Positions 448-31,318 of a stretch of DNA of 59,678 nucleotides are shown here, in pieces. Location: positions 1 through 59,678 of the forward strand of contig JAAYUV010000040.1 in assembly GCA_012517475.1 (NCBI GenBank), written 5' to 3'. Below the pieces are notes generated by a model that was not told where the DNA came from, made no database searches, and was given only the letters and a program-made list of their open reading frames with translations. The stretch is from Peptococcaceae bacterium (GTDB lineage Bacteria > Bacillota > Desulfitobacteriia > Desulfitobacteriales > Syntrophobotulaceae). Within the stretch, counting starts at the first letter, position 1. The number at the start of each line of letters is the position of its first letter. The position numbers and the translations under genes were made by a program.

Positions 448-683
448 GGGGCTGTTGCAAAACTCCTAAGAAGGTTTCCATAATGTATAGCCGCTCTCGG
501 CAGCGTAAAGGCCAGCTAGGCCTTTACGGCCATCCGTGGCCGACGCTCCTTGCCATCCATGGCATCGCGACACTAGGTCATCCATGACCGTTGAAACAGC
601 CGCGCTCCGCATCGCGTTACGCATGCGTAACGCGCTTGACGCTGTCTATACATTACGGAAACTAGTCGTTTTGCAACAGCCCC
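448..683. repeat. Structured repeat element, copy 1 (236 bp, hairpin string with terminal inverted repeats)
   Basis: The ends are a perfect 16-bp inverted repeat, GGGGCTGTTGCAAAAC at 448 and its complement ending at 683. Inside, a second pair (TTTCC-TAATGTATAG / CTATACATTACGGAAA) lies just within the ends. The interior is a row of hairpins: GTAAAGGCC-agcta-GGCCTTTAC (505-527), GGCC-ATCCGT-GGCC (528-541), TGCC-ATCCAT-GGCA (551-564), GGTC-ATCCAT-GACC (576-589), and a perfect 22-bp palindrome at 613-634. A related copy lies at 31031-31318. No transposase is encoded. It behaves like a miniature inverted-repeat element or a structured RNA-like repeat. Confidence 0.85.
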
Positions 684-3075: not shown

Positions 3076-3160
3076 GCGGAAGTGGCGGAACTGGCAGACG
3101 CACTGGATTTAGGTTCCAGCGGGTAACTCCGTGGGGGTTCAAGTCCCTTCTTCCGCACCA
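3076..3160 (+). tRNA. tRNA-Leu (anticodon TAG)
   Basis: The 85-nt sequence has acceptor arms GCGGAAG/CTTCCGC, a long variable arm, a T-loop GGTTCAAGTCC and encoded CCA. The anticodon stem CTGGA/TCCAG closes the loop TTTAGGT, so the anticodon is TAG, reading CTA and, by wobble, other CTN codons. Its last 21 bases plus three more are repeated at 3287-3310, showing that the gene has served as an integration or recombination site. Confidence 0.95.
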
Positions 3161-30031: not shown

Positions 30032-31027
30032 TTGAAAGACGTTTTTTTCTTGGTTTTAAGCTTAGGTATTATTCTTTTAGGGGCCGACTTATTTACCAAC
30101 GGGGTAGAATGGCTTGGGAAAAAGCTGAATCTGGGTGACGGAGCGGTTGGGAGTGTCCTTGCAGCCGTAGGTACAGCCCTGCCGGAAACGATTATCCCGA
30201 TTATAGCTATTTTTTCCCACAGCGGGGCGGCAGGACAGGATGTAGGAATTGGGGCAATATTAGGAGCGCCGTTTATGCTCGGAACATTAGCCCTTTTTGT
30301 GATAGGGAGCGCTGTCTTTTTTTTCCGCCGTTCAAACAGAGCGATGTATATCAATTGTCAGGTCATGCTGAGAGATATCAGATTCTTTTTATTGGTTTAT
30401 TCCCTGGCGATTATTGCGTCGTTCATTCCGGTATATTCTCTTAAACTTGTGGTCGTAGCGGTTCTGTTAGGGGCCTATATTACTTATGTTTTCAAAACGG
30501 TCAGATCCAGTTATGGGGCGGTGGATACGCATGAAGACCTGCTCCCGTGTTATTTTGCCAAAAGATCAAAGAAACCGTCAATGCTTACGATTCTAAGCCA
30601 GATTCTCTTTTCTGTTCTCATTATTGTGGCCGGCGCCGAGCTTTTTGTCAGTTCCGTTCAGGAGGTATCCCTATCTGCAGGAATACCGGTTCTGGTTCTT
30701 TCCCTGATCATCACCCCTGTAGCGACAGAACTGCCCGAAAAGTTTAACAGTATACTCTGGGCACGCAGAGGTAAAGATACCCTTGCCTTAGGAAACATTA
30801 CCGGGGCTATGGTTTTTCAGAGTTCGGTTATTCCGGCTTTGGGTATAGCTTTTACGCCGTGGGTTTTGGAGCCGCTGGCTTTGATCAGCGCTTTATTGGT
30901 TTTGGGATCAGCCGCCTTGCAGTACTTTTTTCTTTCAAAAAACAGGACTCTTTTTCCGGCAGGGCTGCTGTTAGGTGGAGTATTCTATGGGTTGTTTATT
31001 TTATCTGTAATTCGAAATATGGCTTAA
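30032..31027 (+). CDS. Sodium/calcium exchanger family membrane protein
   Basis: The 331-residue protein has about ten membrane segments and two repeated alpha motifs characteristic of the Ca2+/cation antiporter family: GSVLAAVGTALPETIIP (residues 40-60) and SLIITPVATELPEKFNSILW (near 230), each with the acidic residue used for ion binding. It probably exports Ca2+ or another cation in exchange for Na+ or H+. The start is TTG 30032 with AGGAGAG upstream. A structured repeat element begins three bases after the stop, so transcription may run into it. Confidence 0.88.
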   Translation: MKDVFFLVLSLGIILLGADLFTNGVEWLGKKLNLGDGAVGSVLAAVGTALPETIIPIIAIFSHSGAAGQDVGIGAILGAPFMLGTLALFVIGSAVFFFRRSNRAMYINCQVMLRDIRFFLLVYSLAIIASFIPVYSLKLVVVAVLLGAYITYVFKTVRSSYGAVDTHEDLLPCYFAKRSKKPSMLTILSQILFSVLIIVAGAELFVSSVQEVSLSAGIPVLVLSLIITPVATELPEKFNSILWARRGKDTLALGNITGAMVFQSSVIPALGIAFTPWVLEPLALISALLVLGSAALQYFFLSKNRTLFPAGLLLGGVFYGLFILSVIRNMA

Positions 31028-31030
31028 GAT

Positions 31031-31318
31031 GGGGTTGTCGCAAAACTATTTAAGAAGGTTTCCGTAATGTATAGCCGCCCTTGGCAGATTGTGAAGGCCA
31101 CTAGCCTTCACGCATCCGTGGCGAGCCGCTCAATGCCATCAGCCATTTATGCCCTCCATGGCATGGCTGAAATTAGGCACATCCTGTGCCGTTTCCATGG
31201 CATCGCGGCACTAGTCCATCCATGGACGTCGAAACAGCCGCGCTCCGCATCGCGTTACGCATGCGTAACGCGCTTTACACTGTCTATACATTACGGAAAC
31301 TAGTCGTTTTGCAACCCC
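31031..31318. repeat. Structured repeat element, copy 2 (288 bp)
   Basis: It is related to 448-683. The ends are GGGGTTGTCGCAAAAC and GTTTTGCAACCCC, with inner arms TTTCCGTAATGTATAG/TCTATACATTACGGAAA. Hairpins inside include GTGAAGGC-cacta-GCCTTCAC (31091-31111), ATGCC-CTCCAT-GGCAT, GGCAC-ATCCT-GTGCC (31176-31190), GTCC-ATCCAT-GGAC (31214-31227) and the same perfect 22-bp palindrome as copy 1 (31251-31272). Compared with copy 1 it carries roughly 50 extra bases of hairpins, and shared hairpins differ by paired changes. It supplies the last codons of the convergent EamA gene. Confidence 0.85.

Follow-up and report, generated by a model that had tools for sequence, protein, structure and literature searches.

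The two hairpin-rich elements in the window, the whole stretch of 59,678 nucleotides analysed here, are members of a large dispersed family that was previously unnamed. Copies of this family are dispersed, turn over rapidly, gain, lose and nest modules, and keep Watson-Crick pairing whilst their stems change. In our judgement the balance tips slightly towards non-autonomous chromosomal mobile palindromes, similar to REP elements and MITEs, with DNA-level dynamics that preserve loops and correct stems. Each element would consist of small hairpins strung together within an outer inverted-repeat stem, and its double-hairpin core of ~50 bp would also move or be lost as a unit.

Structure of the elements in the window

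Copy 1 is intergenic, starting 58 bp past an ORF that ends at 390 and ending 167 bp before an ORF at 850, the product of which appears LacI-like (named from its own sequence, without a family search), with copy 2 neighboured by a plus-strand ORF ending at 31027 and a minus-strand ORF ending at 31300 (Table 1). The single-strand folding energies of copies 1 and 2 are -111.9 and -127 kcal/mol respectively, with z-scores of -8.7 and -8.65, and 0 of 200 shuffles as stable. The first-pass annotation had located both elements correctly and had read their stems and loops as we do, with its quoted stem pairs CGTAAAGGCC/GGCCTTTACG and GTGAAGGC/GCCTTCAC, and both its S2 hairpins, exact. Versions related to the first of these hairpins occur elsewhere, as GTGAAAGCC..GGCTTTCAC in locus L153 and GTTAAGGCC..GGCCTTAAC in locus L144. 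The 22-bp palindrome described as conserved is indeed present in both copies, however it is itself a local variant, found in 19 of the 32 distinct elements of the source genome, with GTGCTCCGC or GTGCTTCGC holding its position in other copies. The greater length of copy 2 results from an extra 55-bp double-hairpin unit inserted in a loop, which has its own S1, linker, and S2, and is missing from the aligned loci L006, L060, and L002. The window also holds two tRNA genes (2881-2951 and 3076-3157), the only matches in the window above the gathering score of Rfam 15.

Table 1. Features of the two elements
Feature	Position	Strand	Remarks
Element copy 1	448..683	+	236 bp; TCC loops on the plus strand
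Left outer arm GGGGCTGTTGCAAAACTCCTAAGAAGGTTTCCATAATGTATAG	448..490	+	Predicted to pair with 646-683
Hairpin CGTAAAGGCC-AGCTA-GGCCTTTACG	504..528	+	Covaries with GTGAAGGC..GCCTTCAC of copy 2
Hairpin GGCC-ATCCGT-GGCC	528..541	+	Predicted fold
Conserved core double hairpin (S1/H1, linker ACTA, S2)	542..593	+	Covariance model R1
Core hairpin H1 TGCC-ATCCAT-GGCA	551..564	+	Fold and covariation
Core hairpin S2 GGTC-ATCCAT-GACC	576..589	+	Fold and covariation
22-bp perfect palindrome CGCGTTACGCATGCGTAACGCG, copy 1	613..634	.	Self-match in DNA search
Right outer arm CTATACATTACGGAAACTAGTCGTTTTGCAACAGCCCC	646..683	+	DNA search and predicted fold
Element copy 2	31031..31318	+	288 bp
Hairpin GTGAAGGC-CACTA-GCCTTCAC	31091..31111	+	Sequence and fold
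Nested double-hairpin unit	31141..31195	+	In the loop of TGCCATC^CATGGCA; aligned with L006, L060, L002
Core hairpin S2 GTCC-ATCCAT-GGAC	31214..31227	+	Sequence and fold
22-bp perfect palindrome CGCGTTACGCATGCGTAACGCG, copy 2	31251..31272	.	DNA search

A dispersed family with a conserved core

DNA searches place related sequences at dozens of positions in the source genome (90 and 86 aligned pieces), with near-identical copies dispersed at unrelated loci, and the left outer arm tip GGGGYTGTYGCAAAAC occurring 45 times, compared with 0 for the reversed pattern used as a control. These copies range from remnants of 33 and 62 bp, through base forms of ~150 bp, to elements of up to 290 bp. Several contigs of the assembly (G000 C5, C12, C36, C44, C74, C84, C95, and C108) end inside element copies, so the draft probably undercounts them. 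The order and orientation of the interior are constant in most copies, with TCC found in 55 of the 109 hairpin loops of 32 elements and GGA in none (0/109), while the outer ends differ between subfamilies, being GGGGCTGTTGCAAAAC or AGGTCTCTGTAATGGATAG in the source genome and GTCTGCGTGCCACAAT or GTCTCCATAATGGATAG in related genomes. At one locus (L029; G000 C113, 87962-88836), two ~160-bp copies ~540 bp apart flank a small gene, the minus-strand reading of which resembles a small acid-soluble spore protein.

Within these varied surroundings recurs a double hairpin of ~50 bp, both loops of which are ATCCNT, with the layout S1 [GTCGC TCCT (TGCC ATCCAT GGCA) YC GCGAC], a linker AYTA, ATCA, or ATAC, and S2 [NNCC ATCCNT GGNN]. 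This core is present in 29 of 61 relatives, and a covariance model finds it in 22 of the 348 phylum genomes surveyed and in 38 of 248 genomes of the Colwellia order; copy 1 is itself matched by model R1 (C9:542-593, E 5.8e-16), although its core was among the 29 sequences from which the model was built. A pattern scan of named genomes returned 92 stretches, those listed including Desulfosporosinus, Syntrophomonas, Gracilibacter, and Ca. Formimonas, and, among the Gammaproteobacteria, Colwellia, Ferrimonas, and Psychrobium. The gammaproteobacterial core agrees nearly letter for letter, and a nearly identical 30-base core spans two phyla. Searches of plasmid, phage, and viral collections, including 2.9 million viral contigs, gave no match to the element, nor did the element from 15 sources score above the gathering score of any Rfam family, or at relaxed thresholds, and the family is not described in the open literature searched.

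The nesting seen in copy 2 extends to Desulfosporosinus, where a similar unit invades the S2 loop (GTCCATC^CATGGAC), the unit being whole in the sequences as read and starting at the loop in alignment A5, with nested units found at several loci. The insertion of units into the loops of other units indicates that the conserved loop is itself an insertion target. In Desulfosporosinus loci such as L104, L107, and L162 the core lies within larger palindromes, whole stems of which vary from copy to copy around constant joints such as AACCTCTGGG.

Compensatory change in the stems

The compensatory change proposed by the first-pass annotation from two copies proved strong and general across genera. 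In a set of 29 distinct cores from many genera (A3; 13 pairs, 377 cells), 96.8% of stem cells are paired, compared with 84.3% in shuffles. Two-sided changes number 43, compared with 9.1 in shuffles (0/500, the shuffles ignoring relatedness), the covariation score is 0.345 against 0.112 (0/500), and slid registers of the same alignment give at most 4 two-sided cells. Some rows of A3 came from a pattern search in which H1 and most of the 3' arm of S1 were fixed, however the positions left free, namely S2 and the 5' member of the second S1 pair, also covary. With compensatory change real and general across genera, the alternative that copies differ only by gain and loss of whole hairpins and random mutation did not come about, and module gain, loss, nesting, and replacement are as prominent as compensatory change.

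Compensatory change is usually taken as evidence that proves a functional RNA, and RNA under selection normally tolerates G-U pairs. Only 2 of the 377 cells of A3 are G-U, and the TCC hairpins near elements comprise 830 Watson-Crick, 8 G-T, 13 C-A, and 29 other pairs, with a comparison of the G-T and C-A mismatch counts giving no signal of a transcribed strand in either direction. Since the changes preserve Watson-Crick pairs almost throughout and are symmetric between the strands, DNA rather than RNA is indicated, which narrows the earlier proposal of a fold acting as RNA or as extruded DNA towards the DNA level. These sequence patterns favour a DNA-level process, with which both selection of the fold and mechanical correction of the stem are compatible. 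Of the further suggestion that the fold is selected or copied by a structure-dependent mechanism, the excess is borne out, two-sided repairs lying far above expectation, with selection and mechanical correction inseparable here.

Turnover between closely related genomes

Genomes G012 and G002, both probably Dehalobacter, are collinear over 400 kb at ~96% identity, and reveal the short-term behaviour of the elements. In two elements the core of 50-51 bp is cleanly gained or lost at the same junction (GGCGC^AAA), whole elements of roughly 200-300 bp are present or absent (the direction of either event, gain or loss, being read without an outgroup), and the same site can hold elements with different outer stems, one of them with an inverted interior. 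In a 600-kb comparison, 8 of the 18 elements of G012 have a counterpart alignable over at most 27%, and a ninth (884532) aligned only in a widened search, apparently to another copy, with no counterpart in place.

Over the nine alignable elements, including 884532, 220 pairs show no change, 17 carry a one-sided change, and 7 have changes on both sides that keep Watson-Crick pairing; two-sided changes thus make up 7 of 24 changed pairs, compared with ~0.3 expected, although most changed pairs are broken. A stricter set of four elements shows 6 one-sided and 4 two-sided changes (4/10, compared with ~0.1 expected). The substitution rate over the nine elements is 0.065 in stems and 0.080 outside them, and this near equality, together with the excess of two-sided changes, indicates that the stems mutate nearly freely and are quickly repaired or replaced. 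Some of the paired changes may represent replacement by a diverged copy, and not correction in place.

Template switching is known to generate and mend hairpins, and paired stem changes are among its documented results (PMC8794818). It could be supposed that the palindromes have no mobility of their own, and that template switching during replication, along with recombination among copies, makes, extends, and exchanges them where they stand, as would suit the stem replacement and inner inversion at the same site between G012 and G002. We consider this improbable as a full account, with the 30-base core shared almost unchanged by two phyla, the discrete unit boundaries, the near-identical copies at unrelated loci, and the loops, which stay TCC and are not inverted, all speaking against it.

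Proposed mobility of the elements

The favoured reading, that of mobile palindromes with loop-preserving and stem-correcting dynamics, would have single-stranded DNA fold, for example at the replication fork, with stem mismatches corrected from the opposite arm by template switching or converted from another copy. The ATCCNT loops would persist through being recognised, as a target or binding site, by a putative enzyme. Stem correction alone hardly explains the conservation of the loops between phyla, for which a recogniser appears to be needed, and the persistence of one loop pattern in two phyla, with the stems left to vary, implies that some protein recognises it; the searches tied no transposase to the core and found no loop recogniser.

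Elements with GGGGCTGTTGCAAAAC-type outer ends may use a borrowed transposase, that of an insertion sequence bearing PF05598, since one such insertion sequence of G002, with a 551-aa PF05598 gene, has the tip GGGGCTGTTGCACAAC, one base off GGGGCTGTTGCAAAAC. Judged from these sequences, this may account for the GGGGCTGTTGCAAAAC end type only, and no PF05598 insertion-sequence partner of the elements was found in the source genome. The tips of PF05598-type insertion sequences (L333 and L337 of G002, and L348) are hairpins themselves (GGGGCTGTTGCACAACGAACG..CGTTCGTGGGCAATAGCCC). The elements may have arisen by the filling of such a terminal hairpin. No constant target-site duplication was found in the copies read or at the G012/G002 indels, the single candidate being a 10-bp repeat, AAATATAATA, that may flank the copy at L090.

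As REP/BIME sequences, the elements would be mobilised by a transposase of the Y1 tyrosine type (RAYT) or by a relative of IS200/IS605, and their small palindromes, high copy number, intergenic position, dimers, and arrays would fit, as would CGTC, one of the two REP tags (PMC3733652), which ends many cores (after S2 in 16 of 29 A3 rows). The tag is inconstant, however, being missing from the Desulfosporosinus and gammaproteobacterial copies, and the single hairpin of CGTC REPs, with its AT-first stem and loop of 4-5 bases, is absent. Furthermore, Y1_Tnp (PF01797) is missing from the element-rich genomes G012, G017, G023, and G007, and from the Colwellia genome G400, all of which have core matches, and the Y1 gene of the source genome (C44) adjoins an unrelated repeat, GGGACAAGGGGACGGTTC. 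With Y1 genes missing from several element-rich genomes, a RAYT/IS200 mover is not needed, and we regard this origin as very unlikely. The C44 locus itself (L096, G000, about 49.3-52.6 kb) holds a 268-aa Y1-type transposase gene beside GGGACAAGGGGACGGTTC, a direct repeat that forms a separate family.

Possible recognition of the loops by CsrA

Read on the minus strand, every core loop is A-N-G-G-A-U closed by C-G (CANGGAUG; ACAGGAUGU in gammaproteobacterial copies). CsrA has the SELEX consensus RUACARGGAUGU and binds GGA in six-base hairpin loops, with CsrB carrying the repeat CAGGA(U/A/C)G (PMC7652899). The minus-strand loops match this consensus (CANGGANG) and hold GGA in the loops of short hairpins, with TCC invariant in both core hairpins and the most variable loop base corresponding to the N of the consensus. 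The elements could thus be CsrA-binding RNAs, either dispersed CsrB-like sponges or 3'-UTR sites, which we view as a possible but unlikely reading. In the phylum survey, csrA is carried by each of the 22 genomes with elements, compared with 248 of 348 overall, an association that is only modest because the element-bearing genomes are related, and the gene is also present in 10 of 10 gammaproteobacterial genomes tested; csrA is common, many csrA genomes lack elements, and among relatives its presence does not discriminate the element bearers. The near absence of G-U pairs and the lack of strand asymmetry also weigh against such RNAs, as does the inconsistent orientation relative to genes in the three sets counted (40 TCC-sense and 19 GGA-sense in Clostridia, and about even in G012 and G002), with both orientations mixed within some gammaproteobacterial arrays. 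To our knowledge, no CsrB-like RNAs are known in Clostridia. It is conceivable, although we would not expect it, that a mobile family with CsrA-site loops, through dozens of chromosomal copies, forms a dispersed CsrA sponge in Clostridia from a module shared with Gammaproteobacteria.

Comparison with known systems

The first-pass annotation recognised no known class, which holds in that Rfam gave no match and the elements failed the REP definitions tested, however the family does belong with the dispersed mobile palindromes (REP/BIME/MITE). The elements resemble the GTAG and CGTC superfamilies of REP/BIME sequences in being small, intergenic palindromes in many copies, with dimers and arrays, some inside larger palindromes, and stems that vary by complementary changes (PMC3733652). 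They differ in their fixed double-hairpin core, ATCCNT loops conserved between phyla, CGTC in only part of the copies, units nested in loops, and several hosts without a Y1 transposase. Membership of the GTAG/CGTC REPs as defined (PMC3733652) was rejected, with the core being a two-hairpin unit of ~50 bp and not a single stem-loop of 20-40 bp tagged by GTAG or CGTC, and with the Y1 tyrosine transposase that accompanies GTAG REPs missing from the five genomes named above.

Like bacterial MITEs, which measure 70-300 bp, the elements are short (236 and 288 bp) and lack coding capacity, with terminal inverted repeats in the form of imperfect outer arms of 38-44 bases. A tie to an autonomous insertion sequence may exist for one end type, which nearly matches a PF05598 insertion-sequence tip found in a relative. 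In contrast to MITEs, the same interior occurs under several unrelated outer ends and is a structured hairpin string, and no constant duplication was found in the copies read. Mitochondrial double-hairpin and repetitive hairpin elements (RHEs) are likewise mobile and lie between genes as hairpins or double hairpins, however sponge RHEs have conserved helices and variable loops (PMC2800124), whereas here the loops are conserved and the helices variable. CsrB/RsmZ-type sRNAs share the string of hairpins with GGA loops, here on the minus strand, but differ from this family in its many dispersed copies, Watson-Crick-only stems, and Clostridial hosts, and in that no promoter and no constant orientation were found.

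Compensatory change is here found in dispersed mobile palindromes from which G-U intermediates are almost missing. Covariation of this kind makes the family a natural test bed for distinguishing correction at the DNA level from selection on RNA. Additionally, the loop-recognising protein implied by the conserved loops can be looked for, and if this recogniser were CsrA, mobile DNA would be titrating a global regulator.
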